Positions 2,012 through 39,976 of a DNA stretch of 64,000 nt are shown here, piece by piece. The position numbers and the translations under genes are program-made. The DNA is taken from NCBI RefSeq assembly GCF_014926585.1, contig NZ_CP045422.1, positions 2,510,001 to 2,574,000 of the forward strand, written 5' to 3'. Origin of the DNA: Devosia beringensis. Lineage in GTDB: Bacteria; Pseudomonadota; Alphaproteobacteria; Rhizobiales; Devosiaceae. The notes below the pieces were generated by a model that saw only the letters and a list, made by a program, of their open reading frames with translations, did not search any database and was not told the DNA's origin. Every line of letters begins with the position of its first letter. Position 1 is the first letter of the stretch.

Positions 2012-2494
2012 ATGTTCAGACGAGATGTGTTGCTTGTTTTTGGGCTGCTGGTGGTGTGTGGCGTTGTTGCGTTGGGTTCCGCCAACCTTCGGACGAGCAG
2101 CTTCGAACCTCTAGGTCCGGCAGCGTTTCCGTTGGGCCTAGCCTCGGTCATTGCCTGCCTTTCCCTGGTTCTGCTTGTTCAGTCCTGCATGCAGGCAAGA
2201 TATAAATCGCGCCTGCCGAAAGTAGTCGAAGCAATCCCAACAGAAGGGGTATCGCCCCTGCGACAGTCCTGGCTGGCCGCTGCGATGATGGCTTTGGCGA
2301 TTGGCTTTGGCGTAGCCATAGGAATCCTTCGAATAGACTTCGCCCTGGCCAGCGCGATCTTTCTGTTGGCGACGATGACGATCATGACGCGGTTCAGACT
2401 ACGCTCCTTGCCGCTCATACTCGCGATTTCGGCCGCGACGGCCTTTGGTAGCGACTACCTTTTCACGAAAATACTCGTGATCAATCTGCCCTGA
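2012..2494 (+). CDS. tctB: TctB small membrane subunit of TTT transporter
   Basis: 160 residues, very hydrophobic, with about four membrane segments (near 5-25, 36-55, 88-110 and 115-155). The length, the N-terminal hairpin followed by SFEPLGPAAFPLG, and the position between tctC and tctA fit TctB, the poorly conserved small subunit. It starts 68 bases after the tctC stop. Its TGA at 2492-2494 sits 13 bases before the TTG start of tctA, with GGAG in between, so the two are translationally close. Similarity between TctB proteins is low, and the call leans partly on gene order. Confidence 0.85.
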   Translation: MFRRDVLLVFGLLVVCGVVALGSANLRTSSFEPLGPAAFPLGLASVIACLSLVLLVQSCMQARYKSRLPKVVEAIPTEGVSPLRQSWLAAAMMALAIGFGVAIGILRIDFALASAIFLLATMTIMTRFRLRSLPLILAISAATAFGSDYLFTKILVINLP

Positions 2495-2507: not shown

Positions 2508-3998
2508 TTGGAATGGGTTGGCTATAGTCTCGCACTCTTTGCCCCGACGCCCCTGTTGCTGATGTTGGTGGGCACTACGCTCGGTATTGTGGTCGGGGCA
2601 ATCCCCGGCCTCAGCGGAACGATGCTAATTTCGCTGACGCTCCCACTTACTTTCGCAATGTCGCCACTCAACGCCATCGTGCTGCTTATCGCCATGTATG
2701 TCGGGGCGATCTCCGGCGGGTTGATCTCAGCAACGCTGCTGCGAATGCCGGGAACGCCATCTTCCATCATGACAACCTTTGACGGCTATCCAATGGCCCA
2801 GCAAGGCAAGGCTGCACGCGCACTCGGCCTGGGTATCGTCGCTTCGTTTGTAGGTGGCCTTCTGTCCTGGGTCGTGCTGGTTTTGCTAACCCGGCCGCTC
2901 GCTGACCTTGCGGCCGGATTCGGACCCTTCGAGAAATTCAGTTTGGTGATGATGGCGCTTGTTCTTATCGCCGCGGTGAGCGAGGGCTCCCTCCTGCGCG
3001 GACTAATCGCGGGACTGCTTGGCATGCTTGTGGCAATGCCGGGCGTCGATCCGGCGCTTGGCGGGTTGCGCTTGACCTTCGGTTTCAACTTCCTTGATGC
3101 AGGGTTGGATCTTGCGCCGGTGCTTATCGGCGTTTTTGCCGTTAGCCAGATCATCCGGGACAGCAGCGACATTGAGGGCCAGCCGCCGCAGATACATGAT
3201 ATCGGTACTCGAGACGTGTTGCTGCCGTGGAGGGACTGGAAGCGGCACGGCGGTAACATGCTGCAATCATCGGCCATCGGCACGTGGATCGGCATATTAC
3301 CCGGCATCGGGGCAAATATTGCGTCGGTGGTAGCGTACACTTTCGCTCGACGCGTTTCCAAAGAGCCCGAGAAATTCGGCAAGGGCAGCGAAGAGGGCAT
3401 AATAGCATCGGAGGCGGCCAACAATGCCAGCGTCGGCGGCGCCCTGGTGCCCCTGATCGCAATGGGTATTCCCGGCAGTGTCATTGATGCGGTCCTGCTC
3501 GGGGCGTTTGCCATGCATGCGCTCACGCCCGGTACGCTGCTTTTTCAGAATAACCCGGATCTCGTCGCCGCCATGATGGGGTCGGCGTTGATTGCCAACT
3601 TCATGATGTTTGTGCTCATGGTTCTTACGGCCAGGTATATCGCCAAGCTCTGCGCTGTGCCCCGCGCCTTTCTGCTGCCGCTGATCATGTTCTTTTGCGT
3701 CGTTGGTACATTTGCCCTGCGTGGCAACATGCTGGATGTGTGGGTAATGTTGGGCTTTGGACTCGTCGGGCTTGCGCTTGAGGCCTGTCGCATTCCCCTG
3801 GGACCCTTTGTCATTGGACTGGTTCTTGCACCCATTGCCGAAATCAATCTGCGCTCGGGCCTTATGATCTCCGCCGGCTCGATCGAGCCGTTGTTCACGC
3901 GACCCATATCCGCGGTCTTCATGTTTGTAGCGATCGTTTTGCTAGCCTGGCAGCTACGTGAGGAGCTGATTGTGTCGCGGCAAACTCGGCGGGTATGA
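2508..3998 (+). CDS. tctA: TctA large membrane subunit of TTT transporter
   Basis: 496 residues with about ten to twelve membrane segments. The N-terminal repeat contains GAIPGLSGTMLISLTLPLTF and YVGAISGGL, and the second half has the matching GILPGIGANIASVVAY and ANNASVGGALVPLIAMGIPG, the two conserved TctA signatures. TTG at 2508 is chosen as start because GGAG precedes it by about 9 bases and the protein then begins MEWVGYSLA, just ahead of the first membrane helix. It is the last gene of the tctCBA operon. Transport is expected to be proton- or sodium-driven, not ATP-driven. The substrate is unknown. Confidence 0.93.
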   Translation: MEWVGYSLALFAPTPLLLMLVGTTLGIVVGAIPGLSGTMLISLTLPLTFAMSPLNAIVLLIAMYVGAISGGLISATLLRMPGTPSSIMTTFDGYPMAQQGKAARALGLGIVASFVGGLLSWVVLVLLTRPLADLAAGFGPFEKFSLVMMALVLIAAVSEGSLLRGLIAGLLGMLVAMPGVDPALGGLRLTFGFNFLDAGLDLAPVLIGVFAVSQIIRDSSDIEGQPPQIHDIGTRDVLLPWRDWKRHGGNMLQSSAIGTWIGILPGIGANIASVVAYTFARRVSKEPEKFGKGSEEGIIASEAANNASVGGALVPLIAMGIPGSVIDAVLLGAFAMHALTPGTLLFQNNPDLVAAMMGSALIANFMMFVLMVLTARYIAKLCAVPRAFLLPLIMFFCVVGTFALRGNMLDVWVMLGFGLVGLALEACRIPLGPFVIGLVLAPIAEINLRSGLMISAGSIEPLFTRPISAVFMFVAIVLLAWQLREELIVSRQTRRV

Positions 3999-4216: not shown

Positions 4217-5116
4217 TTAGAGGCCGCGGATTTTCATGCAGACGTCGCGCATGACGTCAGCGACCATCCTGGCACCCTTCGAAAGCGGGCTATCTGCAAC
4301 AACTGCTGTTTCAACATGGTACGCGACGGCTCGGTTGGCTATTGGTCGCGTACGGATCAGGCCCGCAGCCACTTCTTTCGCCACGGCAAATTTTGGCAGC
4401 AGGGTGGAGCCACCGCCGGCCAGAATGAGTCCCTTTATGATCTCGATAGAGTCTATGAGGTAGAGGGGTTCGAGCGTAATGCCTTCCTGGTCGGCCGCAG
4501 AAAATATCGCGGCGCCGATGCCATTTTCTCGTCCAGGGATAATCAATGGCATTGCCAAGACCTCGGTAATCTCGATCGGACCGTCACCCGTCGCATCTGC
4601 GGTAAGGCAAACATATTCAAGCACGTCACTGGCTAGTTCCGTGGTCTTGATAAGCTTGCTGACCTCGGTCAGCGAACTTACGACGCCGAAGTCGATCCGT
4701 CCTGCCAGCAGCCATTCCTGCACGGCATATGACATGCCAACCATTATTTTGATTTTTAATGCCGGGTAAAGTTCCCGACAACGGATAAGAAGTTCCGGAA
4801 CGACTGCTGCACCAAAAAGTGGCGGCAGACCCAGCGTTACATCCCCCCCCACCGTCCCGGAAAAGGCCATCACCGCACGTCGAGCCTCATAAAGTGACTG
4901 GAATATCTGGGTAGACCTGCTCAGAAGCTCCTGACCTGCGGGGGTAGCCTCAGCGCCACGGCCATCTCGGCTCAGCAATAGAACGCCGAGTTCTTCCTCG
5001 AGAAGCTTGATTTGTCGGCTGAGTGCGGGAGGGGCGACATTCAGTTTCTCCGCCGCCTTTGTAAAACTCCCGATTTCAGCAACCTGAACGAAATAGCGCA
5101 ACTGTATAAGTTTCAT
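4217..5116 (-). CDS. LysR-family transcriptional regulator
   Basis: 299 residues, the usual LysR length. The winged helix-turn-helix is at about 1-60 (MKLIQLRYFVQVAEIGSFTK, then KLNVAPPALSRQIKLLEEEL). The effector domain follows from about 90 to 290. The start ATG at 5116 gives the canonical LysR N-terminus. It converges on tctA and lies close to the transporter, so it is a candidate regulator of the tctCBA operon or of the aldolase gene. It is clearly paralogous to the regulator at 6563-7501, sharing SRDGRG and VGMSYAVQEWLLAGRIDFGV-like blocks. The inducer is unknown, probably the transported acid or a pathway intermediate. Confidence 0.93.
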   Translation of the reverse strand: MKLIQLRYFVQVAEIGSFTKAAEKLNVAPPALSRQIKLLEEELGVLLLSRDGRGAEATPAGQELLSRSTQIFQSLYEARRAVMAFSGTVGGDVTLGLPPLFGAAVVPELLIRCRELYPALKIKIMVGMSYAVQEWLLAGRIDFGVVSSLTEVSKLIKTTELASDVLEYVCLTADATGDGPIEITEVLAMPLIIPGRENGIGAAIFSAADQEGITLEPLYLIDSIEIIKGLILAGGGSTLLPKFAVAKEVAAGLIRTRPIANRAVAYHVETAVVADSPLSKGARMVADVMRDVCMKIRGL

Positions 5117-5803: not shown

Positions 5804-6445
5804 TCAGCCTTCAGGCAGAAACCGCTCCAATTTCATTATTCCGTAAGTTGACTCTCCAGCTGCAAGCCGAAGACGCAATTTTGCCTCGCCTTCTTCGCGT
5901 GTTTGGCTGAGCTGCAGCACCTGATCCAACTCATGCGGGTCAATCACCACTAGTCCATCGCGATCGCCGACAACAATATCACCGGGTCGGACAAGGGTTC
6001 CACCACACATAACAGGCGTCTGTACCTTTCCAACCTGACGCTTGCCCGATCCCTTTATCGAAATGCCGCGTGCAAAAACGGGGAAGCCGCTGTCAATCAT
6101 GGACTGCACATCCCGCACTGAGCCATCAACGACCAGACCACCCGCTCCAATGGCGAGGGCCCCCGCCGTCATGACATCACCCCAGATGCCTGATTCCATG
6201 AATCCCTTGGCGTCGACAACCATGATGTCGCCCGCGGCCATGCGAGTTAAGGCGTAGTGCAGCATGAGGTTGTCGGCAGGTTCGCTATCAACTGTAAATG
6301 CACGACCGGCCAAACGCATTTTGGGATCAATCGGCTTGATGCCTGAATCCATTGCTCCGCGCCGGCCCTGCGCCTCATGTATGGTGGCCGATCCCAATCT
6401 CTTGAGCGTCTCGAGCGTGATTTCGTCGGGCACCTGCCCCTCCAT
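5804..6445 (-). CDS. RraA/LigK-type aldolase (4-hydroxy-4-methyl-2-oxoglutarate / CHA aldolase family)
   Basis: 213 residues, typical of the RraA-like fold. GIWGDVMTAGA (86-96) and VVDGSVRD (106-112) supply the pyruvate-binding loop, the substrate Arg111 and the metal-ligating Asp112 known from HMG/CHA aldolase. These class II enzymes split 4-carboxy-4-hydroxy-2-oxoadipate into pyruvate and oxaloacetate. That is exactly the product of the LigJ hydratase at 14686, so a joint pathway is likely. The gene is divergent from the LysR gene at 6563, with 117 bases between, a classical LysR-target arrangement. RraA-like proteins without aldolase activity exist, but the intact R-D pair and the context favour the enzyme. 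Confidence 0.85.
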   Translation of the reverse strand: MEGQVPDEITLETLKRLGSATIHEAQGRRGAMDSGIKPIDPKMRLAGRAFTVDSEPADNLMLHYALTRMAAGDIMVVDAKGFMESGIWGDVMTAGALAIGAGGLVVDGSVRDVQSMIDSGFPVFARGISIKGSGKRQVGKVQTPVMCGGTLVRPGDIVVGDRDGLVVIDPHELDQVLQLSQTREEGEAKLRLRLAAGESTYGIMKLERFLPEG

Positions 6446-6562
6446 ATTTCGAACCGCAGAATTGACGCGGCAAGTGTTTATGAGCCTAGAGTAGGCAAAG
6501 GGCGTCGGCCGGGAAGAGAGCTTTTTCTTCTAACAGCTAGACACGACACCGGGGGAACGACC

Positions 6563-7501
6563 GTGAAGCTTCAGCAGTTGCGCTACCTTATCCAAGTTGC
6601 CGAGTCAGGCAGCTTCACCAAGGCCGCAACCAAGCTCAATATCGCCCAGCCGGCGCTCAGCAAGCAGATTCGATTGCTGGAAGACGACTTGGGTGTTCTC
6701 CTGTTTAGTCGCGACGGGCGTGGCGTACTGCCAACCGCCGCGGGCCGCGAACTTGTTGACAGGGCCAGCTCGTTGTTCACTGACCTCTATGACATGCGCC
6801 AATCGGTGATGCGGTATCGCGACACCGTCGAGGGGAGCGTGACAATCGGCATGATGCCGTTACTTGGCGCACATGTTGTTCCTGGCTTGCTGCTGCGGGC
6901 TCGAGAGTTGCATCCCAACGTGCGTGTCAACCTCATGGTGGGCATGTCCAGTGCGATACATGAGTGGGTGATATCGGGACGTGTCGATTTCGGAGTGGTC
7001 TCCGCTGCAGCGGAGACGAGCACCTACTTGGTTTATGAAGTGGTTGGTCGAGACAGGCTTCATCTGGTCACCAGCACGCTGGATTTGCCGGCTGAAGAGG
7101 GGGGAGTAGTTACCCTTGCGGAGGCCCTGGCCTATCCATTGGTTCTCCCGACCAAGTCGAACGGAATCCGAGCACTGATCGAGCGCAACGCGACCAATCT
7201 GGGCCTAACCGTCCAGCCGGTGCTGGAGGTGGATTCGGTAGAGATAATCAAGCGGCTCCTGCCGACTGGCATCGGGCGAACCATCTTGCCCAGCTACTCC
7301 ATAGCGGAGGAAGTCAAGCGAGGAGAGTTACGCAGCGATCCCATCGTCGATCCGGAAATGGACCACGAGGTGGCGATCAGCTTCACGGCCGAGCGCCCCC
7401 TGAGCCCGATAGCCTCAGCTATCGCGTCGATCCTCCGCCAGGTCGTCGTTGCCGAACTGCATCCGCTGGCCGCTCTAAACGCGCCGACTGAGTATAACTG
7501 A
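6563..7501 (+). CDS. LysR-family transcriptional regulator
   Basis: 312 residues from the GTG at 6563. The frame is open further upstream, but GTG-AAG-CTT gives the normal LysR start VKLQQLRYLIQVAESGSFTK and is preceded by GGGGGA. Helix-turn-helix at about 15-60 (AATKLNIAQPALSKQIRLLE), effector domain from about 90. It is divergent from the RraA-type aldolase and points towards the hydratase at 7725, so it probably controls one or both. It shares long blocks with the LysR at 4217-5116, suggesting a duplication within the cluster. The C-terminus (about 290-312) has no counterpart I recognise. Confidence 0.92.
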   Translation: MKLQQLRYLIQVAESGSFTKAATKLNIAQPALSKQIRLLEDDLGVLLFSRDGRGVLPTAAGRELVDRASSLFTDLYDMRQSVMRYRDTVEGSVTIGMMPLLGAHVVPGLLLRARELHPNVRVNLMVGMSSAIHEWVISGRVDFGVVSAAAETSTYLVYEVVGRDRLHLVTSTLDLPAEEGGVVTLAEALAYPLVLPTKSNGIRALIERNATNLGLTVQPVLEVDSVEIIKRLLPTGIGRTILPSYSIAEEVKRGELRSDPIVDPEMDHEVAISFTAERPLSPIASAIASILRQVVVAELHPLAALNAPTEYN

Positions 7502-7724
7502 TAGAGCGGATGGTCAGCTTCCGGTGGTAAGCCCGCCAGTCCAAAATACTCATGGTTGGGGAATGGCACCGGTCGGCAATCGAGTGACTCAGATGATCTG
7601 CAGGACGGTGTGTGCGCCCAAGGCTCGCCTGAGCGTCCACTCGTTCAGAACCTGAATAAGAGTACTGAGCCTGCCACGCGTTCCCCTTTCGTCAAAGCGC
7701 ACAAGACCTCCCAAGGGGAACTGC

Positions 7725-8507
7725 ATGAAATTGTTGCCAGGGCAGATTGCCAAAGCCGCGGAGTTTCTCATCCAGGCGCGCCGGGATGGACGGCGGCTAG
7801 ATTCGCTGCCGGATGCTCTCCGGCCTCAGTCCATCGATGAGGCGCACGCGATCCAGGACGCCGTATTCGCGCGTTCTGGAGAAAAAATCTCGGCCATAAA
7901 AGTCGGTGCGACGAAGGACGGTACCGTCTTTCGCGGCATTCTTCATGAGTCGCTATGCCGCGCCAGCCCGGCCGTTTTCGATGCCACCGAACATGACTTC
8001 GTCGGTATTGAAGCGGAGATCGCTTTTCGCTTTCCTGACGGTCTGGCGCCCTCCGACAAGAGCTATTTGCCTGAGGTCGTTGCAGCCGCCGCCAGCGCCT
8101 TGGCGGCCTTTGACATCGTCGGCACGCGTTTCGACAACTTCATGGCGCTGAGCCAGTTCGACAGGATCGCGGATGGACTGAATGCCGGCGGCTTCGTCTA
8201 CGGCAGGGAACTTGCCGACTGGCGAGGTGTGGACTTCACGACCATGCCTGTTGAGGTCTGGGTCGATGGCAGCCGCGTGTACTCGGGCATTGGCGGCCAT
8301 GCTTCAGTGGACCCCTTCCTGCCGGTTCTGAGATATGTGGATTCGGTGCGAGAAGCGGGGCTGCCACCGGGCACCTGCCTGACAACGGGCTCTTTTTGCG
8401 GCTTTTTGCCAGTCGCTCCAGGTCAAACTATTGGCGCCACCCTAGGTCGATTCGAAGCGATAGAGGTAACGCTGCGGGCCGCCGACGGAAGAGCCCGGCA
8501 AAGTTGA
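7725..8507 (+). CDS. 2-keto-4-pentenoate hydratase (MhpD)-family protein
   Basis: 260 residues, the normal length for the MhpD branch of the fumarylacetoacetase superfamily. SAIKVGATKDG (57-66) and VGIEAEIAFRF (94-103) are visible; Glu96 and Glu98 match the acidic metal ligands of the family. The late block PGTCLTTGSFCGFLPVAPGQ is also conserved. Members add water to 2-hydroxy-dienoates after meta ring cleavage, or decarboxylate 4-oxalocrotonate. The start ATG follows AAGGGGAACTGC. The gene lies between a LysR gene and a TctC gene and ends well before a terminator serving the opposite strand. Which of the two reactions it performs cannot be decided here. Confidence 0.88.
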   Translation: MKLLPGQIAKAAEFLIQARRDGRRLDSLPDALRPQSIDEAHAIQDAVFARSGEKISAIKVGATKDGTVFRGILHESLCRASPAVFDATEHDFVGIEAEIAFRFPDGLAPSDKSYLPEVVAAAASALAAFDIVGTRFDNFMALSQFDRIADGLNAGGFVYGRELADWRGVDFTTMPVEVWVDGSRVYSGIGGHASVDPFLPVLRYVDSVREAGLPPGTCLTTGSFCGFLPVAPGQTIGATLGRFEAIEVTLRAADGRARQS

Positions 8508-8680
8508 CTGCGACACAGGCTCACTGGAACTACCTTGCGTCAAACGGCTAGTGTCGGCCGGGCGAATGCTCAATCATCGCGTGGCGATACCAGAGCTTGG
8601 CGAGGCGAAAGGTCGTACCAGCGTTCCCAACCTACAATCGACTGGTCCGGCGCGTTGGCCGCTGATGGGCGGGTAAAGTC

Positions 8681-8709
8681 AAAAAACGCCCACGCTGCAG
8701 CGTGGGCGT
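8681..8709 (-). terminator. Rho-independent terminator for the minus-strand tctC operon
   Basis: A perfect 24-base palindrome (ACGCCCACGCTG and its complement) at 8686-8709 is followed, on the minus strand, by six T residues. It lies a dozen bases past the stop of the tctC gene at 8722, so it ends the transcript HpcH aldolase - TPP enzyme - tctC. Confidence 0.85.
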
Positions 8710-8721
8710 CATTGGTCATGG

Positions 8722-9699
8722 TCAGTTGCCATCCTGCTTGGCAAGGTCGATCAGAGGCTTGAAGCGCTTCTCGATCTCGTCCCAGGCCGCAGCGTATTCG
8801 CTAGGGTTGAGGAAACGGCCGTTGATCGCCCGCTCTTTGAGATAGGCTTGGGTTTCTGGGGCATCCAGAGCCTTCTTCAACGACGCAGCAAGTATATCGA
8901 CTGTCGCTGGCTCCATATTGGCAGGCCCGACGACGCCGAGATCTACCGAAAGGGAGCCGACGTCATAGCCCTGTGCCTTGAAGGTCTTGACGCCAGAAAC
9001 ATCCTCGCCATCGGCCATGACGCCGAGGATGCGCAACTGGCCGCTTGCCACCTGCGGCAAAACCTCACTAAGCGTATTGAACGATACATCGATATGGCCA
9101 CCAAGAAGGGCAGTCATCTGCTGTGCGCCGCCCGTGAAGTTGACGGTGGCCAACTTGATGCCGAGTGAGCGGGCGAAGTCGAGGCTGGCCAAGTGACCAG
9201 TAGAAAGACGTCCTGCGGTACCGGCCTTGAGGGAGCCGGGGTTCGCCTTAGCCGCAGCAATCAGATCCTCCACCGTGTTGTATGGGCTGGAGGCGAGAAC
9301 AGTCGCTGCCGAGTTGGACGTCTGCAGTGACGCGATGGGCTGGAAGTCATCACGGCCATATGTCGACTGCCGCTCCTCGTCGAGATACGCAGCAGCAGTC
9401 GGCAGCACCATCCACATCACCGTGTAGCCGTCGGGCTTGGAACCGACGAGTTCAACTGACCCGATTTGCATCGAAGCGCCTGGTTTATTGACAACCTGAA
9501 CGGTAACGCCAAGGTCGGCCTCCACCAGCGGCGCGATGACACGGGCGAACTGATCGGTGCCGCCACCCGGCGGCACCGGCACGATCATCGTGACGGTGCT
9601 GCCCGGGGTTGGGAACTCCTGTGCGTTAGCCGCAAGCGGCATGACACCGGCGACCAGCCCAACCAAGCCCGCCGCTACAAGATTGATATATCGTTTCAT
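8722..9699 (-). CDS. tctC: TctC/Bug-type periplasmic substrate-binding protein
   Basis: 325 residues with a signal peptide (1-26, ending ANA before Q27). The mature start has the family loop IVPVPPGGGTDQFAR, where the first lobe binds carboxylate. It is the last gene of a minus-strand operon behind the TPP enzyme and the HpcH aldolase, and is followed by a strong terminator. No tctA or tctB lies on this strand. The matching membrane genes are probably the divergent pair at 12664-14648, giving a split TTT system. It is only distantly similar to the first TctC (963), so a different ligand is likely. Confidence 0.92.
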   Translation of the reverse strand: MKRYINLVAAGLVGLVAGVMPLAANAQEFPTPGSTVTMIVPVPPGGGTDQFARVIAPLVEADLGVTVQVVNKPGASMQIGSVELVGSKPDGYTVMWMVLPTAAAYLDEERQSTYGRDDFQPIASLQTSNSAATVLASSPYNTVEDLIAAAKANPGSLKAGTAGRLSTGHLASLDFARSLGIKLATVNFTGGAQQMTALLGGHIDVSFNTLSEVLPQVASGQLRILGVMADGEDVSGVKTFKAQGYDVGSLSVDLGVVGPANMEPATVDILAASLKKALDAPETQAYLKERAINGRFLNPSEYAAAWDEIEKRFKPLIDLAKQDGN

Positions 9700-9777
9700 T
9701 GTCTAAACTCCCTTTTCCATTGTTCTTGAATACGTCTTGCCTGCCCCGCTCCTCCACCAAGCGGTCTTTCTCCAAAG

Positions 9778-11448
9778 TCAGGTCGTGGGCGGCTTGTAGC
9801 CGACGGCGTCCCGCATGTTTGGAGCCAACACCTGATCCGAGACATGAACATCCCATATCTCGACATCGGCATGTGCCTCATAGTCCTTCATCAGCCCGGC
9901 GAACTGGGCGATATCGCTGATCGTGGCGCCGCGTACGCCGAAGCCCTTGGCGATCGCCTCGAACGGCGGGCGACCGAAAACCGCACCGCTGTCGTCGATT
10001 CCATCCTTGCGCAGCTTGTGCACCTCTGCCCCGAAGGCCCCGTCATTGCAGCAGACGATGAGCAGTTTTACTCCCTGACGCTTCAACGACTCCAGCTCCT
10101 GGATTTGCATAAGCAGCCCGCCATCGCCCTCGAACAGCACGACTCGGCCATTCTTGCGGGCAACAGCGATACCGGAGGCGAAAGCGAAGGCGTTACCGAT
10201 GGCGCCGAATGCGCGCACCGCATGATAGTTGCGCGGATCGGCACCCCGCATGGTCGTGTGCCAATAGGCCTGGTGCGCAGAGCCACTGACGAAGTCGTAG
10301 TCGGTGGGAATGACTCGCTCGAGTTCTTCGAACACCCGGCGCGGATCGAGTGTACCATCGGAGATGATATAACGGGTGTCGTCGGCGGGTTCTTCACGCA
10401 GACGTTTGGATAGCGCCAAGCTGCGGATATCGGCCTTCGCCTGCTTGCTGGCAACTGCGGCCAGCAGGGCCGTTGCGGCCAGCTTTGCGTCTGCCTTGAT
10501 ATAGACGTGGGCTGGCTTCAGCCCCTCCCTATAGCCGGTCGGGAGAATGTCGACCTGAACCATCTTGGCATTGGGGAACATCTTGCCGGAGTCGGTTGTA
10601 AAACGCGAAAGGCTGGCGCCAAAGACGACGACCAGGTCGACGCTTTTGCCGACGTCCCGGGAAGCCTGTCTTGCGTATCCGCCGACTATGCCAAGAGAGT
10701 TGGGGTTGTGGTCAAACATGCCCTTGGCGAGCAGTGAGGTGCCGAGCATGGCGCCGGTTTTTTCCGCCAGTGCCTCGACCTCGCTCCGCGCGTCGGACTG
10801 CATCACACCGCGACCGGCGACGATCACAGGCGCCTTGGCCTCCGACAGCAGTGAAGCCAGTTCCGCGATCTGGCCGGGGTCTGGCGTGATGCGTTGCGGC
10901 TGTGGCAGCAGTTCTGCGGATGGGCGATACGTGCCGAGATCCGGCGCGACCAGCTCCTGCAGATCGGCGGGTACGCCGATCACAACCGGTTTGCGGTCGA
11001 ACTGCGCAATGTAAAACGCCTCGCGAACATCGTGATACATGCGCGCTGTGCTGTGCAGCGGAATATATTCTGCGCCGCAGGCCTTTGCCAGCGCAGCGTG
11101 GTCCATTGCCTGAAGGTACCATGGCGCGGTCAGCGGGGCTTCGCCGGCAAACACCACAAGCGGAACAAAATTGCGGGCCGCAGTCGTCAACGCCGTCATC
11201 GTCTGGGTGAAACCGGGACCATGGGTGACCGACGCCACGCCCACCTTGCCGGTGGCACTCCAGTAGCCGATCGCCATCATACAGGCGCAGTGCTCATGCC
11301 GAACGCCGAAGGTGGTCATGCCGGGCAGATGGCTCATCGCCGTCATCCACAGCATGTTGCCGTCACCCATCAGGCCGAATTGCGTATCGACGCCTTCTGC
11401 GGCAAACGCTTCAGCAAGGGCGTGGTAGATTTGTCTTTGGTGACTCAC
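9778..11448 (-). CDS. thiamine-diphosphate-dependent decarboxylase/acetolactate-synthase-like enzyme
   Basis: 556 residues from the GTG at 11448, which has CGGAG five bases upstream; a longer frame to 11526 would run into the previous gene. The three-domain TPP fold is visible. The pyrimidine domain carries FGVRHEHCACMMA with the catalytic Glu at about residue 52, the central domain has VVVFGASLSRF, and the diphosphate domain has the GDGG...ND motif (FEGDGGLLMQIQELESLKRQ). The family includes benzoylformate and oxalyl-CoA decarboxylases and acetolactate synthases. Between an HpcH aldolase and a TctC gene, a 2-oxoacid decarboxylase yielding an aldehyde for the dehydrogenase at 16997 is plausible. 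The exact substrate is not readable. Confidence 0.85.
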   Translation of the reverse strand: MSHQRQIYHALAEAFAAEGVDTQFGLMGDGNMLWMTAMSHLPGMTTFGVRHEHCACMMAIGYWSATGKVGVASVTHGPGFTQTMTALTTAARNFVPLVVFAGEAPLTAPWYLQAMDHAALAKACGAEYIPLHSTARMYHDVREAFYIAQFDRKPVVIGVPADLQELVAPDLGTYRPSAELLPQPQRITPDPGQIAELASLLSEAKAPVIVAGRGVMQSDARSEVEALAEKTGAMLGTSLLAKGMFDHNPNSLGIVGGYARQASRDVGKSVDLVVVFGASLSRFTTDSGKMFPNAKMVQVDILPTGYREGLKPAHVYIKADAKLAATALLAAVASKQAKADIRSLALSKRLREEPADDTRYIISDGTLDPRRVFEELERVIPTDYDFVSGSAHQAYWHTTMRGADPRNYHAVRAFGAIGNAFAFASGIAVARKNGRVVLFEGDGGLLMQIQELESLKRQGVKLLIVCCNDGAFGAEVHKLRKDGIDDSGAVFGRPPFEAIAKGFGVRGATISDIAQFAGLMKDYEAHADVEIWDVHVSDQVLAPNMRDAVGYKPPTT

Positions 11449-11504
11449 GTCAACTCCGGTGATGCTTGAGTAAAAGAATGGCGTTGAGTATCGCGCCCGC
11501 GACT

Positions 11505-12278
11505 CTATTTCTTGGCAAACGTCCACTTCTCCGCCAGCGTATCCGCCGCCCGGGCCAGGATCACTGCATCTACGCCGACCGCGATGAACTGAAATCCGTA
11601 GTCGATATAGCGTTCGATCTCATCGTCGTTGGTGGCAATGATACCCGATGGCTTGCCGACGGCCTTGAGCCGCTTGGCTGCGAAAGCGATCAGCGTCTGC
11701 ACGTCGGCATGGCCCGACTGACCGATAAGACCCATCGACGCCGACAGATCGGCCGGTCCGATAAAGACACCGTCCACACCATCCACTAAAGCGATGTCCT
11801 CGATGACCGCGATCGCATCCTTTGTCTCGGCCTGCACCAGCAGGCAAATTTCCTCTGAGGCGCGGTGCAGATAGTCGGGAATGCGGCCAAAGCGACCTGC
11901 GCGTGTGGCGCCCCCGATGCCGCGTATGCCGGCCGGCGGGTAGCGTACAGAGGCCACGGCTGCCCGTGCCTCGTCAGCGCTCTGGATATAAGGCACGATC
12001 ATGCTGAGCGCCCCTAGATCGAGCATCATCTTGAACAGGACTGGGTCATTCCAGGGCAGTCGAACCACCGGCATGGTTCGGCTACGCCCCAGAACCTGCA
12101 ACTGCGCAAGAACATCGGTAATGGTGTTGGGTGAATGCTCACCGTCGATGACCATCCAGTCGAAGCCAGCATCACACAGCACTTCCGTAACTAGTGGATC
12201 ACGGAACGTCTGCCAGAAGCCAAGCTGGCGCTGACCCGCAGCCAGCGACTTCTTGAATGGATTGGTCGGTAATTCCAT
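11505..12278 (-). CDS. HpcH/HpaI-family class II aldolase
   Basis: 257 residues from the ATG at 12278, preceded by AGAGGACAGG; 19 further codons upstream are in frame but lack a binding site. FDWMVIDGEHSPN (39-51) carries the general-base His48. The later blocks VQAETKDAI and VDGVFIGPADLSASMG carry the metal-binding Glu and Asp of the HpcH/HpaI fold. These enzymes split 4-hydroxy-2-oxoacids into pyruvate plus an aldehyde. It is the first gene of the minus-strand operon with the TPP enzyme and TctC, and is divergent from the tctA-tctB-ligJ operon. A 2-keto-3-deoxy-acid or 4-hydroxy-2-oxo-dicarboxylate is a likely substrate. Confidence 0.88.
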   Translation of the reverse strand: MELPTNPFKKSLAAGQRQLGFWQTFRDPLVTEVLCDAGFDWMVIDGEHSPNTITDVLAQLQVLGRSRTMPVVRLPWNDPVLFKMMLDLGALSMIVPYIQSADEARAAVASVRYPPAGIRGIGGATRAGRFGRIPDYLHRASEEICLLVQAETKDAIAVIEDIALVDGVDGVFIGPADLSASMGLIGQSGHADVQTLIAFAAKRLKAVGKPSGIIATNDDEIERYIDYGFQFIAVGVDAVILARAADTLAEKWTFAKK

Positions 12279-12663
12279 GACGCTACCTGTCCTCTGCCTC
12301 TGTCCGGTTGCCAATGCAGCGAACTTGCCGTGCAAGGCGAACCTCCAGATTGACGCGCTTTCTCCATGTGCCGGTGAGGGTGGTGGTAACGCGTCCGAAA
12401 TGGACTAGGACACAGCGTGGCCAACGGAGCCACAACAGTTTGGTTATTTCAGGTGTGCCGCAATGCTGTCTTGTGGCCGCGAAGGTTTGGGCCATAACTC
12501 GGGACGCTGACCTGCGGAACTCTTTCGAGCAATCGATAGCCGACGCGGCGACGTAAAAAGATCAAGTGCGTGATGTGGCAACTGTTTTGAATCATTGCGT
12601 TTACGGTTTGCTTTGGGAAGACTTATCGCCTTGCCGCGAGATGTCTCGGGAGGAGAACACACG
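12279..12663. promoter_or_regulatory. divergent intergenic region of the two catabolic operons
   Basis: About 385 bases separate the minus-strand aldolase operon from the plus-strand tctA operon, so both promoters must be here. No protein remnant is visible. I see no convincing operator shared with the other LysR-flanked gaps. A GGAGGAG ribosome binding site at about 12649 serves tctA. Confidence 0.5.
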
Positions 12664-14160
12664 GTGGATACTTTCCAGCTGCTGCTCGGCGGTTTTGCGA
12701 CCTGTCTCGAGCCGCATAACCTGATGTTTGCGTTCCTCGGTTGTCTCATCGGGACAATGGTGGGTGTGCTACCAGGGCTCGGGCCGGCCGCCGGCACTGC
12801 AATCCTTATTCCAGTGACCGCCGGCCTCGATCCGACTGGCGCAATCATCATGCTGGCCGCGATCTACTACGGAGCCATGTACGGGGGCACGATTACCTCT
12901 GTGCTGATGAACACCCCGGGCGAGGCAGCGTCCGCCGTGACCTGCATCGACGGCTACGAGATGGCCAAGAGGGGGCGGGCAGGCGCCGCGCTCTCGATCG
13001 CTGCCATCGGTTCGTTTGTCGGTGGCATTATCGCGACCATCGGCCTTGTATTCCTGGCTTTGCCACTGACAAAGCTGGCGCTGACCTTCGGTCCGCCCGA
13101 GGTATTCGCCGTCCTTGTGGTCGGCTTGTCGCTGGTGACGGCGCTGGCAAGCCGCTCCCTGCTTCGTGGCCTGATCGCCGCTGTGATTGGCTTGCTCATC
13201 GCCCAGGTGGGCATCGACCCCGTTCAGGGCGCCCCGCGCTTCATCTTCGGCTTTCCCGAACTGCTCGACGGTTTCGGCGTGGTCCCGGTCGTAATGGGCC
13301 TGTTTGGCATCACCGAAATCCTGCTCAATGTCGAATCCCGCGCGACCCAGCCGAAAACGGCAAAGCTCTCGACCCTGATGCTCACCAGGGACGATGTAAA
13401 GGCCTCCGTCGGCCCGATCGGACGTGGCACGGTTATCGGCTTTTTCCTCGGACTGGTGCCTGGGCTCGGAACCGTCGTGCCGGCCTTTCTGTCCTACGTC
13501 GTGGAGAAGCGCATTTCCAGGACGCCCGAGCGGTTCGGCAAGGGCGCGATCGAGGGTGTCGCCGGGCCAGAAACCGCCAACAATTCCTGCGCCAATGCTT
13601 CGCTGATCCCGCTCTTTACACTTGGCGTGCCGAGTTCGCCGACGACCGCGATCCTGATGGGTGCCTTCATGATCAACGGCCTCACCCCTGGGCCGCAGCT
13701 CTTCATCGATCACGCCGAATTCGTATGGGCGGTAATTGCCAGTCTGGTGGTCGGCAATGTGATCCTGCTGATCCTGAACCTGCCCTTTGTCCCGGTGTGG
13801 ACGACAATTCTCAAAATCCCCTATTCTCTGATGATCGTTATCATCATCGGTTTCTCGGTGATTGGCGCCTACAGCATCAACAACAATGTCTTCGATATCG
13901 CGGCGATGCTTGTCTTCGGCTTGGTCGGTTACATTTTCAAGAAACTCGATATCCCGACCGCTCCGCTGGTGTTGACCTTCGTGCTGGCTCCCCTGATGGA
14001 AAGCGGACTGCGCCAGTCTCTTGAAATGTCGCAGGGTGACTTCTCGATCTTCCTCACCCGGCCCATCACCACGACCCTACTAACCTTCGCACTGGTCTCG
14101 ATCGCGGTGTCGACCTTCCAGGCAGTCAAGCCGGTGCGCGGAGCGGACAGCGAAGCATGA
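12664..14160 (+). CDS. tctA: TctA large membrane subunit of a second TTT transporter
   Basis: 498 residues from the GTG at 12664, placed by GGGAGGAG about 10 bases upstream. Hydrophobic throughout. The two internal repeats are clear: [19 protein letters not shown] with [14 protein letters not shown] in the first half, and [17 protein letters not shown] with [20 protein letters not shown] in the second. Its stop overlaps the tctB start (ATGA). It heads the operon tctA-tctB-ligJ-decarboxylase-aldehyde dehydrogenase, so the imported acid is very probably the substrate or precursor of these enzymes. The cognate binding protein is likely the divergent tctC at 8722-9699. Confidence 0.93.
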
Positions 14161-14648
14161 GTGAACCATCCCTTGCCCCGCCCCGAACCATGCAGCGTAG
14201 CTACCAGATCGCAGGCGCAGTGCTGCTGCTTTTCGCGGCGTACATCGTGACGACCGCGCTTCGCATGCGCTACTACACCTCGCTCGGCCCTGGCCCCGGC
14301 TTCTTCTCCTTCTGGCTCGGGCTTGCGCTCGGCATACTGGCCCTGGTCATGGTCGGCCAGGCAACATTCGGCAAATCTGATGATATGCCGGAAGGCTATA
14401 TCGCCGAACGCGGCGGCTATCTGCGGCTAGGCACGATCATCCTCTGCCTCGTTGGCGTGGTCGTCTTCTTCGAGCGGCTGGGCTATTCGCTGACCATGCT
14501 CATAGTATTCGCAGTTTTGCTGCGCGGTCTCGGTCGCTTCAACTGGCTGGTGTCCATCGGCGGCGCGCTGATTGGAAGTTTCGGCATCAATTATATCTTC
14601 ACTACCTGGCTCCAGGTGCCTCTCCCCAGAGGCGTCCTTGGCTGGTGA
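14157..14648 (+). CDS. tctB: TctB small membrane subunit of the second TTT transporter
   Basis: 163 residues with about four membrane helices (near 15-33, 50-70, 88-108 and 113-155) and the TctB-like YYTSLGPGPGFFSFWLGLAL after the first helix. Its ATG overlaps the tctA stop by four bases, giving coupled translation. The order tctA-tctB is the reverse of the first TTT operon, so the two systems were not copied as a block. 37 bases separate it from ligJ. Confidence 0.87.
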   Translation: MSEPSLAPPRTMQRSYQIAGAVLLLFAAYIVTTALRMRYYTSLGPGPGFFSFWLGLALGILALVMVGQATFGKSDDMPEGYIAERGGYLRLGTIILCLVGVVVFFERLGYSLTMLIVFAVLLRGLGRFNWLVSIGGALIGSFGINYIFTTWLQVPLPRGVLGW

Positions 14649-14685
14649 GTGCCATTGCACACATATTGAAAATAGGACCCCTAAA

Positions 14686-15714
14686 ATGATCATCGACGTC
14701 CATGGGCATTACACGACCGTGATGAAAGACGTAATGGCGTGGCGCGCCATGCAGCTCAACGCCATGAACGATCCGGCCAACAAGCCCAAGCCCGATTTCG
14801 GCATCAGCGATGACCGTATCCGGGAGACGCTGGAGAGCGGCCAGATCAGGCTGCAGCGTGAGCGCGGCACGGACGTGACCATCTTCTCCCCGATCGCCAG
14901 TGCTATGGCCCACCACCTCGGCAACGAAGCGATCAGTCAGGAATGGACGCGAATGTGCAACGACCTGATCTACCGCGCCGTCTCGATGTATCCCAAGAAT
15001 TTCATCGCCGTCTGCCAATTGCCTCAGTTCCCTGGAGTATCACCCAAGAACTGCATTGCCGAGCTCGAACGCTGCGTCGAGACCATGGGTTTCGTGGGCT
15101 GCAATCTCAATCCGGACCCCTCCGGCGGCAACTGGAGCGGCCCCCCACTAACCGACCGCTACTGGTACCCGATCTACGAGAAGATGGTTGAGCTAGACGT
15201 GCCGGCGATGATCCACACGGCGCTGTCCGATAACCCCAACTTCCACACCACCGGCGTCCACTACATCAACGGCGACACCACCGCCTTCATGCAGTTTCTG
15301 CAATCGCAACTGTTCAAGGATTTCCCCACGCTGCGCTTCGTCATTCCGCATGGCGGTGGCGCTGTGCCTTATCATTGGGGTCGTTATCGCGGTCTCGCCA
15401 TTGACCTCAAGATGCCTCCGCTCGGCGAGCACCTGCTCGACAATATCTTCTTCGATACATGCGTTTATCACCAGCCGGGCGTCGAATTGCTGGCCAAGGT
15501 AATCCCGGCCAAGAACATCCTCTTTGCTTCCGAAATGATTGGCGCTGTCCAGGCGATCGATCCGGAGACCGGGCACTACTTCGACGACACCAAGCGCTAC
15601 CTCGACGATGTGCCGTTTCTTTCCGACGACGAGCGTACGCTGATTTTCGAGGGCAATGCCCGTCGGGTCTATCCGCGGCTCAATGCTCGTCTCGCCGCCG
15701 TGGGCCTCAGCTGA
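14686..15714 (+). CDS. ligJ: 4-oxalomesaconate hydratase (LigJ type)
   Basis: 342 residues, amidohydrolase fold. MIIDVHGHYTT at the start and QERGSD-like RERGTDVTIFSP follow the Sphingobium LigJ pattern nearly block for block, as do FVGCNLNPDPSGG, WYPIYEKMVEL, IPHGGGAVPYHWGR and NILFASEMIGAV. The zinc ligands expected in LigJ are all present: His6, His8, His177 and Glu283. LigJ adds water to 4-oxalomesaconate to give 4-carboxy-4-hydroxy-2-oxoadipate, in the 4,5-cleavage routes of protocatechuate and gallate. The next enzyme, an RraA/LigK-type aldolase, is at 5804. ATG at 14686 is chosen because it gives the family N-terminus. The ring dioxygenase is not in the window. Confidence 0.92.
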   Translation: MIIDVHGHYTTVMKDVMAWRAMQLNAMNDPANKPKPDFGISDDRIRETLESGQIRLQRERGTDVTIFSPIASAMAHHLGNEAISQEWTRMCNDLIYRAVSMYPKNFIAVCQLPQFPGVSPKNCIAELERCVETMGFVGCNLNPDPSGGNWSGPPLTDRYWYPIYEKMVELDVPAMIHTALSDNPNFHTTGVHYINGDTTAFMQFLQSQLFKDFPTLRFVIPHGGGAVPYHWGRYRGLAIDLKMPPLGEHLLDNIFFDTCVYHQPGVELLAKVIPAKNILFASEMIGAVQAIDPETGHYFDDTKRYLDDVPFLSDDERTLIFEGNARRVYPRLNARLAAVGLS

Positions 15715-15734
15715 CGCTCAGACAGGAGGTAAAT

Positions 15735-16676
15735 ATGGCTGACAAACTTATTCTGAAAACCTGGTTCGAAATGGCGCCTCATTTGGAGGCGCTGGTTGAT
15801 GGCCGTGTCACGTCCGAACGCATCGTTCTGGATCGCGTCAACTATCCGTTCCCTAAGGCCGTGCGGGCCCTGGTGCGCGATGAAGAGTTCGACGTCTCGG
15901 AGGTGCCGCTAACAACCCTGGCGCTGGCCCGGGCCTATCGCGACACCTATATCGGGCTGCCGGTGGTCGTGTCGCGTGACTTTCATCAGCGCTCCATCGT
16001 GGTGCGAAAGGACGCACCATTCCACGGACCGGCCGATCTCGCCGGAAAGCGCATCGGCGTGCGAGCCTATTCGGTGACCACTGGCGTCTGGGTGCGCGGA
16101 ATCCTGCAGGAGGAGTTCGGCGTCGATCCCGCCAAAGTGACCTGGGTAACCACCGAGGACGCCCATGTTAGCGAATATAGCGAACCTTCCAACGTCGAAC
16201 GCGCACCCGCCGGCGCCGATCTTCTCGACCTGCTGCTTAAGGGCGAGATTGACGCGGCGATCGGGCTCCGGAACCACGACTTCTCAAAGGTCCGCTATCT
16301 GTTCGACGATGTCGACAAGGCGACCGCCGAGTGGCACCGCAAAACTGGGGTCTATCCGGTAAACCACATCATGTCGGTGCGCTGCACGCTTGCGGCCGCC
16401 CATCCCTGGTTGTCGGCCGAGATTTTCCGAATGTTCGAAGAGGCCAAGCAACTCGCCATGCAGGCAGGCTGGCAGGCCCAGCCGACCTTCATCGACGGCA
16501 CCGCCCGCGAAACACTTCTCGCCATGGTCGGCCCCGACCTCATGCCCAACGGCCTCATCCCCAACCGCCCAGCATTCAGCATGCTCCTCGAAATGGCCCA
16601 CCACCAGGGCCTCACCCCGCGGCTGTTCGGGATCGACGATGTTATCGCTACGCCAGGGTCACCAGCGAGCAACTAA
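15735..16676 (+). CDS. 4,5-dihydroxyphthalate decarboxylase-like protein
   Basis: 313 residues starting at an ATG preceded by a perfect AGGAGGT. The fold is that of periplasmic binding proteins type II, but there is no signal peptide. Blocks such as RALVRDEEFDVSEVPLTTL, FHQRSIVVRKDAP, LAGKRIGVRAYSVTTGVWVRG and NHIMSVRCTL match 4,5-dihydroxyphthalate decarboxylase (Pht5-like) proteins, which use this fold as an enzyme. It sits 20 bases after ligJ in the same operon. A role in decarboxylating an aromatic polycarboxylate before ring cleavage would fit. Many proteins annotated this way have unknown activity, so the reaction is uncertain. Confidence 0.78.
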   Translation: MADKLILKTWFEMAPHLEALVDGRVTSERIVLDRVNYPFPKAVRALVRDEEFDVSEVPLTTLALARAYRDTYIGLPVVVSRDFHQRSIVVRKDAPFHGPADLAGKRIGVRAYSVTTGVWVRGILQEEFGVDPAKVTWVTTEDAHVSEYSEPSNVERAPAGADLLDLLLKGEIDAAIGLRNHDFSKVRYLFDDVDKATAEWHRKTGVYPVNHIMSVRCTLAAAHPWLSAEIFRMFEEAKQLAMQAGWQAQPTFIDGTARETLLAMVGPDLMPNGLIPNRPAFSMLLEMAHHQGLTPRLFGIDDVIATPGSPASN

Positions 16677-16996
16677 GCTTCGGATACGCGCAAAGCGTAA
16701 CTGGCTGGAACCTGCGACGACCAACCGATTGAAAAGCCTCAGTTTGGAACTGATGGAGACGCCGATCCCGAAAACAGTTCGCGCCATCTTTGGTTACCAG
16801 CGCGTCATAGCGACGCCGACCGTGCCGAAGCGCGGGGACTGCCGCTGACGTCGCTATGTGTTGTTCCTTGCCGCCTATTGGGGGGCTCTGGATCAACCGA
16901 GCCAATGTTGCCTTCGCTGGTGGCCTCGAAGCATCGATCAAAGCCGAACTACTCGGCTTCTAATAACGGAGCGCTGCGGCGCAGGAGGAGACTGAC
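16677..16996. other. intergenic gap within the ligJ operon
   Basis: 320 bases lie between the decarboxylase-like gene and the aldehyde dehydrogenase. Short open frames on both strands match nothing I know. A GGAGGAG binding site precedes the dehydrogenase start. The gap is long for an operon and may hold a separate promoter, but no motif is clear. Confidence 0.4.
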
Positions 16997-18442
16997 ATGG
17001 ACATTGGATTTCTGATCGACGGCGCTGATCGTGGCGCCAGTGGGGGCGCAACCTATGACCGCCTGGACCCCTTCACAGGCAAGCTGGCGACGCGCGCCGC
17101 TGCCGCGACAGTGGCCGATGCCAATGCGGCCGTGGACGCGGCCGCAGTCGCCTTCAAGACCTGGTCCAAGACTGGTCCCGGGGAACGGCGCGCGCTTTTG
17201 GTCAAGGCGGCGGATGTCATGGCAAGCAAGGTCGGGGAGTTTACCCAGCTCATGATCGAAGAGACGGGTTCGACCGGGCCCTGGGCTGGCTTCAACGTCA
17301 TGCTCGCCGCCAATATGCTGCGCGAAGCGGGGGCGATGACCACGCAGATTTCCGGCGAGATCATTCCATCCGACAAGCCGGGCACGCTCTCGATGGGCAT
17401 GCGCCAGGCCGCGGGCGTGTGCCTCGGCATCGCGCCCTGGAATGCTCCGGTCATCCTAGGCACCCGGGCGATCGCCATGGCCATTGCCTGTGGCAACACC
17501 GTCGTGCTCAAGGCGTCGGAAGCCTGCCCCGGCGTGCATCGGCTGATCGGGCAATGCCTGCATGAGGCCGGCATCCCAGCCGGGGTGATCAACGTCATCA
17601 CCAACGACCCCAAGGACGCCGCCGCGATCGTCGAAGCCCTGATCGCCCACCCTTCCGTGCGTCGCGTCAACTTCACCGGCTCGACCAGTGTCGGCCGGCG
17701 GATCGGGGAACTGGCGGGCAAGCATCTCAAACCCGCTCTGCTCGAACTGGGCGGCAAGGCGCCGTTCATCGTGCTCGACGATGCCGACATCGACGGCGCG
17801 GTCAATGCCGCCATCTTCGGCTCGTTCATGCATCAGGGCCAGATCTGCATGTCGACCGAACGGATCATCGTCGACAACACTGTCGCCGATGAATTCGTCG
17901 ACAAGCTCGCCGCCCGTGCGGCGCAACTCCCGGCCGGCGATCCGCGCGGCCACGTGGTGCTCGGCTCGCTGGTGAGCCTTGCGGCGGCAGAAAAGAACGA
18001 GGCTTTGGTCACCGATGCGGTCGCCAAGGGCGCCGTGGTGCGGGCCGGCGGCAAGCGCACCGGCACTGTGGTGGCGGCGACCATTCTCGATAACGTCACC
18101 CCGGCCATGCGGGTCTATACCGAGGAGTCGTTTGGTCCGGTCAAGCCGATCGTCCGCGTCGATGGCGAGGACGAAGCGGTGCGGGTCGCCAACGACACCG
18201 AATACGGGCTGTCCTCCGCCATCTTCAGCCGCGACATCCAGCGGGCGCTGTCGGTTGCGGCGCGCCTCGAATCCGGGATCTGCCATATCAATGGCCCCAC
18301 GGTGAATGACGAGGCGCAGATGCCGTTCGGGGGCATGAAGGGGTCGGGCTATGGCCGGTTCGGGGGCAAGGCCGCCATCGCCGAGTTCACCGACCTGCGC
18401 TGGGTCACCATCGAAGATCCCAACCAGCACTATCCGTTCTAG
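16997..18442 (+). CDS. NAD(P)-dependent aldehyde dehydrogenase
   Basis: 481 residues, the standard family length. Catalytic Asn149 (IAPWNAP), Glu250 (LLELGGKAPFIVLDDAD) and nucleophile Cys284 (HQGQICMSTERI) are all present. The cofactor block NFTGSTSVGRRIGE lies at about 225-238, and the C-terminal GGMKGSGYGRFGG is typical. The sequence is closest in style to aromatic aldehyde dehydrogenases (vanillin, benzaldehyde, salicylaldehyde). GGAGGAG precedes the ATG. It would oxidise an aldehyde made by the decarboxylase at 9778 or from a side chain. It is followed at once by a pobA remnant, also aromatic catabolism. Confidence 0.9.
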   Translation: MDIGFLIDGADRGASGGATYDRLDPFTGKLATRAAAATVADANAAVDAAAVAFKTWSKTGPGERRALLVKAADVMASKVGEFTQLMIEETGSTGPWAGFNVMLAANMLREAGAMTTQISGEIIPSDKPGTLSMGMRQAAGVCLGIAPWNAPVILGTRAIAMAIACGNTVVLKASEACPGVHRLIGQCLHEAGIPAGVINVITNDPKDAAAIVEALIAHPSVRRVNFTGSTSVGRRIGELAGKHLKPALLELGGKAPFIVLDDADIDGAVNAAIFGSFMHQGQICMSTERIIVDNTVADEFVDKLAARAAQLPAGDPRGHVVLGSLVSLAAAEKNEALVTDAVAKGAVVRAGGKRTGTVVAATILDNVTPAMRVYTEESFGPVKPIVRVDGEDEAVRVANDTEYGLSSAIFSRDIQRALSVAARLESGICHINGPTVNDEAQMPFGGMKGSGYGRFGGKAAIAEFTDLRWVTIEDPNQHYPF

Positions 18443-39607: not shown

Positions 39608-39976
39608 ACTTTCCGGGCACCTTTGGTTGGATTATGGGTAGAGCTACTCAAATTTAAGCGAACAACTCGACGTTTCGATCCCTGTCTCAAGATATTTTGA
39701 TGGTTTGTCATGCAAATCTCAATACCTCTGCTTTAAGCCGTCAAGCGGACAATCGGGACTGGGCGAAAGCTGTGATCTGCTGATCTGACATTAGGAGTTG
39801 GATTGGTGGCCGACGCTAAGACCTCGCACTGCAATTGTATGGCCCGGTGGAGACGACCCAGCATCGGTGGATCTCGCCCCCGTCATAAGGAATGAAATCG
39901 AAAGTTGCCGACTAGCCATCGATGGTCAATGCGTCATATGTGCCTTGTGGAACGGATGTTTTGCGTCGCAAAACCA
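39608..39976. other. gap between kinase and response regulator
   Basis: The only structure seen is the palindrome GTTTTGCG-T-CGCAAAAC at 39958-39974, touching the kinase stop. It could end the kinase transcript, but no T-run follows. No gene is visible. Confidence 0.4.

Follow-up and report, generated by a model that had tools for sequence, protein, structure and literature searches.

The window analysed here, 64,000 bases long (bases 2510001–2574000 of the single-contig chromosome of Devosia beringensis, which comprises 4,048,765 bases and is 99.82% complete), carries a homologue of the 4-oxalomesaconate (OMA) hydratase LigJ together with an RraA-type aldolase, and no LigAB- or GalA-type ring-cleavage enzyme stands beside them. 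What, then, feeds this pair of enzymes? In the reading we prefer, which has about an even chance of being correct as a whole, roughly the first 18.4 kb (~1–18.4 kb) would form a horizontally acquired catabolic island that takes up an organic acid through tripartite tricarboxylate transporters (TTT), splits it and ends at pyruvate and oxaloacetate, with the feed coming from a route other than LigAB.

The preliminary description of the locus had paired the two enzymes as consecutive hydratase and aldolase, and both genes proved to be real. The LigJ homologue, a 4-oxalomesaconate or 2-keto-4-carboxy-3-hexenedioate (KCH) hydratase by type, lies at 14686..15714 (+) within an open reading frame (ORF) of 14572–15714, the homologous part of which starts at 14686. 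PDB sequences named 4-oxalomesaconate hydratase (2gwg, 6dwv, 6dxq and 6dxs) match it over residues 1–340 or 1–341 with E 8e-149 to 1e-144. The aldolase at 5804..6445 (−) matches the Pfam RraA-like family with 141 bits, matches PDB 3noj with E 4e-45 and exceeds the cut-off of NCBIfam PRK09262, a 4-carboxy-4-hydroxy-2-oxoadipate (CHA) aldolase/oxaloacetate decarboxylase model, with 194 bits versus 179. Nine of ten residues studied in a characterised 4-hydroxy-4-methyl-2-oxoglutarate (HMG)/CHA aldolase are kept (R40, N71, H75, R123, D124, G144, K147, R195 and E199), while T145 is replaced by serine. According to an excerpt of PMC5065237, a role in binding the C5 carboxylate of CHA is proposed for N71 and K147, and RraA-type HMG/CHA aldolases take both HMG and CHA as substrates. 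On these sequence grounds, the window protein is a probable CHA/HMG aldolase and its pairing with LigJ is plausible.

The reported absence of a suitable dioxygenase holds well beyond the window. The LigB family PF02900, to which we take LigB, GalA and DesB to belong, has 0 matches in the 4.05 Mb chromosome, which hence shows no LigAB-type dioxygenase for 4,5-cleavage. From the flanks we fetched 60 kb on the left and 20 kb on the right; gene calls inspected by eye in 40 kb left and 20 kb right show no dioxygenase in the immediate surroundings of the window; the outermost 20 kb (L123) entered BLAST and G+C counts only. Two proteins considered there were rejected. One is a two-domain VOC protein, located 53 kb left of LigJ, for which the catechol 2,3-dioxygenase score amounts to only 25.5 bits; the other, a Rieske/reductase-like protein, stays under every NCBIfam cut-off and lies 1.2 kb beyond the right end, at about 50 kb from LigJ. 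OMA tautomerase (LigU) is likewise absent from the cluster, its single genome copy being located 1.08 Mb away at 1443554–1444576. The genome encodes four Amidohydro_2 proteins, none of which is matched at 1e-3 by two LigI-type queries (so called from their position in lig-type clusters); with three LigI2-type queries of greater distance, the matches are one Amidohydro_2 protein, at only about 25%, and LigJ itself at 22%. The LigC search was confined to the 64 kb window, where a single query, also named by its lig-cluster place, has no match at E 1e-12.

The same LigB search served as a control in other genomes. LigJ is present at E <= 1e-90 in 14 of 385 genomes sampled from the class, own genome included, and the 13 others all have LigB-family genes. 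Within the family, LigJ (E <= 1e-60) occurs in 4 of 136 genomes: the own genome, G001 (65%), G130 (63%) and G117 (37%), of which G117 has a LigB match and G001 and G130 have none. A wider test of 38 genomes found LigB in 25. The fetched locus includes LigJ in 33 of these 38 genomes, and LigB is lacking in 10 of the 33, several of which are metagenome bins, for which such an absence is weak.

We then compared LigJ neighbourhoods, with LigB and LigU references checked against NCBIfam and LigA, LigC and LigI named by cluster place. Among 48 fetched LigJ loci, eight have LigA, LigB, LigC and LigU together, and none of the eight carries a gene for a Pht5-like protein, such as adjoins LigJ in the window, within 12 kb. 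A Pht5-like gene is found in 37 of the 48; LigA is absent from all 37, and a LigB match is present in a single one of them (L062). In 30 of the 48 loci, however, Pht5 is present by construction, as they were fetched via a Pht5 alignment. The 18 loci chosen otherwise divide into eight with LigA, seven with Pht5 and three with a LigB match. When plasmids are included, the number of LigJ loci rises to 56; a match to LigA/LigB, to an intradiol or to a type I extradiol enzyme lies within 10.5 kb (E 1e-15) in 15 of them and is missing from 41, a count that covers these families only and includes loci cut by contig ends. In a LigJ tree, the clade formed by seven of the eight LigA-linked sequences does not include the window protein, but the backbone is unresolved and the sample biased, most other rows having been found via the Pht5 search and one row of <300 residues omitted. 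Since LigJ occurs with LigAB, with an intradiol or type I extradiol enzyme or with none of these nearby, LigJ and its partners are shared endings and no proof of LigAB.

The closest counterpart of the window cluster is found in G001, of the same family (locus L088), with RraA (82%), LysR (71%), an MhpD-like protein (59%), a thiamine pyrophosphate (TPP)-dependent enzyme (65%), TctC, TctA, TctB and LigJ (65%), the genes from MhpD through TPP, TctC, TctA and TctB to LigJ all running in one direction. The locus further includes a second TctCBA set and, on the opposite strand, a Pht5-like gene (35%). The G001 genome has neither a LigB nor an OMA tautomerase match, so that two components of the standard route are lacking across this whole genome.

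The smallest LigJ units seen are those of two Caballeronia plasmids (L168 and L170), which consist of LysR plus MFS-LigJ-RraA, without an oxygenase in the unit; in one of the two, a phytanoyl-CoA dioxygenase-family gene lies 3.7 kb from LigJ. They resemble the window in LigJ (68.5–70% identity to the window protein), RraA, an importer, LysR and the lack of a ring-cleavage gene, but have a major facilitator superfamily (MFS) protein in place of TTT, no Pht5-like, TPP or MhpD-like gene and a normal LigJ loop. A third Caballeronia plasmid, the gene table of which is incomplete, shows LysR, LigJ and RraA in that order and nothing in the MFS place. On plasmids of Acidovorax (L162) and Diaphorobacter (L163), Pht5-LigJ-amidohydrolase is accompanied by genes whose annotations are protocatechuate 3,4-dioxygenase, aldolase/citrate lyase and acetolactate synthase, and by a second substrate-binding-type protein, which in the Acidovorax case shows the window-type Pht5 motif. 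In Roseomonas gilardii, a Pht5-like gene sits between CHA aldolase and TctC genes, with a class III extradiol gene 5.5 kb further on. An intradiol enzyme of the Acidovorax/Diaphorobacter type was considered as the feed in D. beringensis and rejected: in the pieces of the own genome that were searched by tblastn, including the loci where its three intradiol hits lie, no match is better than E 0.5. This excludes a close relative only, as the same query misses the two adjacent pcaGH-like intradiol dioxygenase genes at 1458855–1459993 of the chromosome.

The companions of the pair named in the preliminary description were all confirmed, as a Pht5-like protein, a TPP enzyme, an HpaI-type aldolase, a distant MhpD-like protein and two TTT systems. 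The first TTT system comprises TctC at 8722..9699 (−; Pfam TctC, 140 bits), TctA at 12595..14160 (+; 534 bits) and TctB at 14157..14648 (+; 60 bits), and the second TctC at 963..1943 (+; 104.7 bits, with a 51% equivalent in the G001 locus), TctB at 2012..2494 (+; 49.9 bits) and TctA at 2508..3998 (+; 481 bits, 67% in G001). PDB relatives of the first-system TctC include terephthalate-binding proteins, and comparison of TctC with solved structures indicates no single ligand class. The protein at 7725..8507 (+) is a distant relative of MhpD and 4-oxalocrotonate decarboxylase, far under the NCBIfam cut-offs of dmpH (42.6 bits) and dmpE (41.6 bits) and matching NahK in the PDB with E 6e-10; its relatives in seven class genomes (34–43%) have no LigJ match nearby. 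The HpaI/GarL-type pyruvate aldolase at 11505..12335 (−), the ORF of which overlaps the TPP gene, has PDB matches of HpaI type (E 2e-78) and 306 bits to NCBIfam HpaI (cut-off 369). An aldehyde dehydrogenase at 16997..18442 (+; Pfam Aldedh, 494 bits), just outside the interval first described and possibly part of the cluster, reaches the cut-off of none of the 25 NCBIfam models among the matches listed. Between it and the Pht5-like gene, positions 16680–16996 contain no clear gene and look like a remnant.

In the pathway we propose, the TTT systems would import an organic acid, which the Pht5-like lyase or decarboxylase, the TPP enzyme and the MhpD-like protein would convert to KCH or a close analogue by a reaction other than LigAB/GalA-type ring cleavage; the pathway would then end at pyruvate and oxaloacetate. 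We infer in this scheme the direction of flow, the substrates, the transported compound and the roles of the Pht5-like, TPP, MhpD-like and HpaI proteins. With protocatechuate 4,5-cleavage (lig/pmd) the cluster shares a LigJ homologue, a CHA-type aldolase and, presumably, the end products; it differs from that pathway in the lack of a LigB-family match in the chromosome, of a match to the two LigI-type queries and of a tautomerase in the cluster, and in having TTT importers and Pht5-like, TPP, MhpD-like and HpaI genes instead. The earlier suggestion of a substrate other than protocatechuate or gallate is favoured in part, by the missing LigAB/GalA-type dioxygenase, by the recurring LigJ clusters without LigA and by the importer-LigJ-RraA units of Caballeronia, and is countered by a ring-cleavage candidate at 1.44 Mb of the same chromosome, which stands with GalB-, LigK/GalC- and OMA-tautomerase-type genes.

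Several observations weigh against an imported acid that enters by a non-LigAB route. The aldolase stays under the ligK_PcmE cut-off, with 171 bits versus 304.5. LigJ and the aldolase lie 8 kb apart on opposite strands and hence do not form one operon. The window LigJ is altered in an otherwise almost fixed loop, so that its OMA/KCH hydratase activity is not assured. An MhpD-like protein accompanies LigJ in only two of 136 family genomes, own included, and the G001 cluster contains no match to the HpaI-type aldolase or to the aldehyde dehydrogenase, which are therefore not core genes. Since TTT binding proteins also carry aromatic acids, the transporter gives no pointer to an aliphatic acid. 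OMA tautomerase is present in 10 of 14 genomes without a LigB match (own included), so that most of them keep this part of the standard pathway. An ordinary explanation would fit one paper, PMC4714105, which lists 4-oxalomesaconate hydratase and 4,5-dihydroxyphthalate decarboxylase in a phthalate degrader. Finally, a second OMA-processing set at 1.44 Mb looks complete without the window genes.

This second set is a row of four genes at 1443554–1446963 (−) (L122:3551–6963), consisting of a type I extradiol-type dioxygenase (299 bits to catechol 2,3-dioxygenase, cut-off 320), a PIG-L protein where GalB would stand, a LigK/GalC aldolase that exceeds both curated cut-offs and the GalD-type OMA tautomerase (544 bits, cut-off 440). 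It is adjoined by PurU and a protein, cut by the stretch end, with 430 bits to LigM and 381 to DesA (cut-offs 580 and 800). To judge from these genes, the set may represent a pathway for syringate/3-O-methylgallate or gallate in which an enzyme outside the LigB family opens the ring. Compared with galA/galBCD of Pseudomonas putida (names from an excerpt of PMC12314914), the genome shares the hydratase and aldolase steps and, at 1.44 Mb, GalB-, GalC- and GalD-type genes, but has a type I extradiol gene and no GalA, and the window itself has LigJ and not GalB. Excerpts of PMC12314914 and PMC8027834 describe no type I extradiol cleavage of gallate or 3-O-methylgallate, and PMC4250580 and PMC3962378 contain both 'type I extradiol' and 'gallate dioxygenase'. 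Near these gal-type genes, a TRAP-type transporter set, recognised by eye, lies beside an Amidohydro_2 protein without NCBIfam match (L148:9549–13494, ~1.43 Mb).

The window LigJ and RraA might be spare downstream copies for an OMA pathway that starts at the 1.44 Mb dioxygenase, while the rest of the island serves other acids. The clustering of dioxygenase, PIG-L, LigK/GalC and tautomerase genes argues for this, and it recurs elsewhere: relatives of the dioxygenase (E <= 1e-60) occur in 10 other of the 385 class genomes, and in two of them (L152 and L153) galB, galC and galD homologues lie within the fetched 4 kb, which is not the case in the other eight, the closest relative (84%) among them. 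On the other hand, genes for a hydratase-type protein and an aldolase are already part of the 1.44 Mb set, 1.08 Mb separate the two clusters, and G001 has a window-type cluster without a tautomerase match and without a match to the 1.44 Mb dioxygenase or GalB in the regions searched (L088 and 15 kb around its own two-domain VOC gene). As the 1.44 Mb set looks complete alone, the window cluster provides a spare ending or, with greater probability, represents a pathway of its own, and we consider spare copies unlikely.

The altered loop of LigJ allows a different explanation, to which we give an equally small share of belief, namely that the protein is no longer an OMA hydratase, having shifted to another unsaturated 2-oxo acid or drifted after loss of function, and that the aldolase acts on a different 4-hydroxy-2-oxo acid, for example HMG. 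After the presumed metal-ligand histidine, the window LigJ reads IHTALSDN and does not carry the conserved HVSxSCN of the usual IHVSxSCN loop. The changes, V178T, S179A and C182D, fall on near-fixed positions: V is invariant among the 119 nearest relatives, S and C are each present in 117 of them, and one has D at 182. V178 and C182 are retained in G001, in nine other Pht5-linked LigJ compared and in six plasmid LigJ, among which residue 179 varies. These changes may matter for the activity of the window protein, and the acceptance of both HMG and CHA by aldolases of this type would fit a shifted substrate. Against such a shift or loss, the reading frame of LigJ is intact and 125 of 143 positions invariant in the eight LigA-linked LigJ are kept, most other Pht5-linked LigJ differing at 9 to 20, and the aldolase retains the residues proposed for the extra carboxylate of CHA.

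If the preferred reading of an imported acid is followed, an imported tricarboxylate is possible, and an aromatic polycarboxylate is as likely. The former fits the relatives of the TPP-dependent enzyme at 9778..11526 (−), a protein with three Pfam TPP domains that neither Pfam, NCBIfam nor PDB sequences place (it reaches the cut-off of none of 25 NCBIfam models among the matches listed) and for which a scan of viral contigs gave no match. Relatives of 42–43% identity (E 1e-80) occur on three plasmid records, with TTT genes adjoining in all three and tricarballylate dehydrogenase (TcuA) genes also beside them in two. The clusters of Pacificitalea (L167) and Roseivivax (L169) plasmids combine TTT genes, an annotated OMA tautomerase and the TPP enzyme with the tricarballylate dehydrogenase genes, L169 having in addition a PIG-L protein, a CHA aldolase and another tautomerase nearby. 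They are like the window in the TPP enzyme and the adjacent TTT genes, but have tricarballylate dehydrogenase and no LigJ listed. A bolder version, which we think rather improbable, would make LigJ and RraA a portable two-enzyme module that also serves compounds not derived from ring cleavage: the TTT systems would import an aliphatic tricarboxylate related to tricarballylate or aconitate, and the TPP enzyme and a dehydrogenase would link acids at the KCH/CHA level to those at the aconitate/citrate level, for instance by decarboxylation of KCH to an aldehyde that the aldehyde dehydrogenase oxidises to aconitate. In the open-licence PMC literature, no paper was found that pairs oxalomesaconate with tripartite tricarboxylate or tricarballylate, or with a set of the cluster terms.

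The Pht5-like protein at 15735..16676 (+), of periplasmic-binding-protein fold and without a signal peptide by eye, had been described as a decarboxylase. This holds for its fold, as the 4,5-dihydroxyphthalate decarboxylase 9jp7 (Pht5/PhtD) is its closest solved relative by sequence and fold (30–32% identity) and the only PDB sequence match, but not for its conserved motif, which is GVRAYSVTTGVWVRGIL versus GLPEYQLTANVWARAIL in 9jp7. Measured against a 9jp7-type motif, which is our own reading from the sequence of one structure and no published signature, it has VRAYSVTTGVW, FHQRS and YPVNH instead of PEYQLTANVW, FRHTS and FPIMH. Relatives in loci without LigJ have varied neighbours. That the protein is a true 4,5-dihydroxyphthalate decarboxylase making protocatechuate for the chromosomal protocatechuate 3,4-dioxygenase, with LigJ incidental, is very improbable, since, despite the kinship with 9jp7, the pcaGH-like pair and a 9jp7-type motif in a LigJ neighbour in L058, L079 and L121, its motif differs, relatives with the window-type motif adjoin LigJ in many loci, and no phthalate oxygenase was recognised beside the gene in Pfam/NCBIfam scans of the cluster and by eye among the window genes.

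Two LysR-type regulators recognised by Pfam complete the putative island, one at 4217..5116 (−) and one at 6377..7501 (+; 71% in G001), the true start of the latter lying later than annotated, as its helix-turn-helix begins near residue 65 of the ORF. G+C is 57–61% over the first 16 kb versus 62–66% in most other pieces counted in the own genome. This low G+C and the presence of LigJ in only 4 of 136 family genomes fit a recent gain, and we regard the island as probably acquired horizontally. A second low-G+C stretch (54–59%) is located at 36–44 kb of the window (L092 has 61%). Positions 24–64 kb were covered by eye inspection of gene calls and tblastn with the reference set; resolvase-, transposase- and integrase-like genes seen there at 35674–43411, together with a G+C dip to 54% at 36–40 kb, suggest mobile DNA adjoining the island. 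To the left of the window, a cluster for an acid-sugar kinase and a dehydrogenase, recognised by eye (L091:2217–8831), is apparently unrelated to LigJ.

Genome annotation takes LigJ to indicate the 4,5-cleavage of protocatechuate or gallate. The clusters compared here suggest that LigJ and the aldolase rather form a reusable ending, for which the feed can be LigAB, an intradiol or type I extradiol enzyme or a source not yet recognised. Identifying the substrate would give functions to the large Pht5-like group, which one source labels 4,5-dihydroxyphthalate decarboxylase, and to the group of TPP enzymes found beside tricarboxylate transporters.

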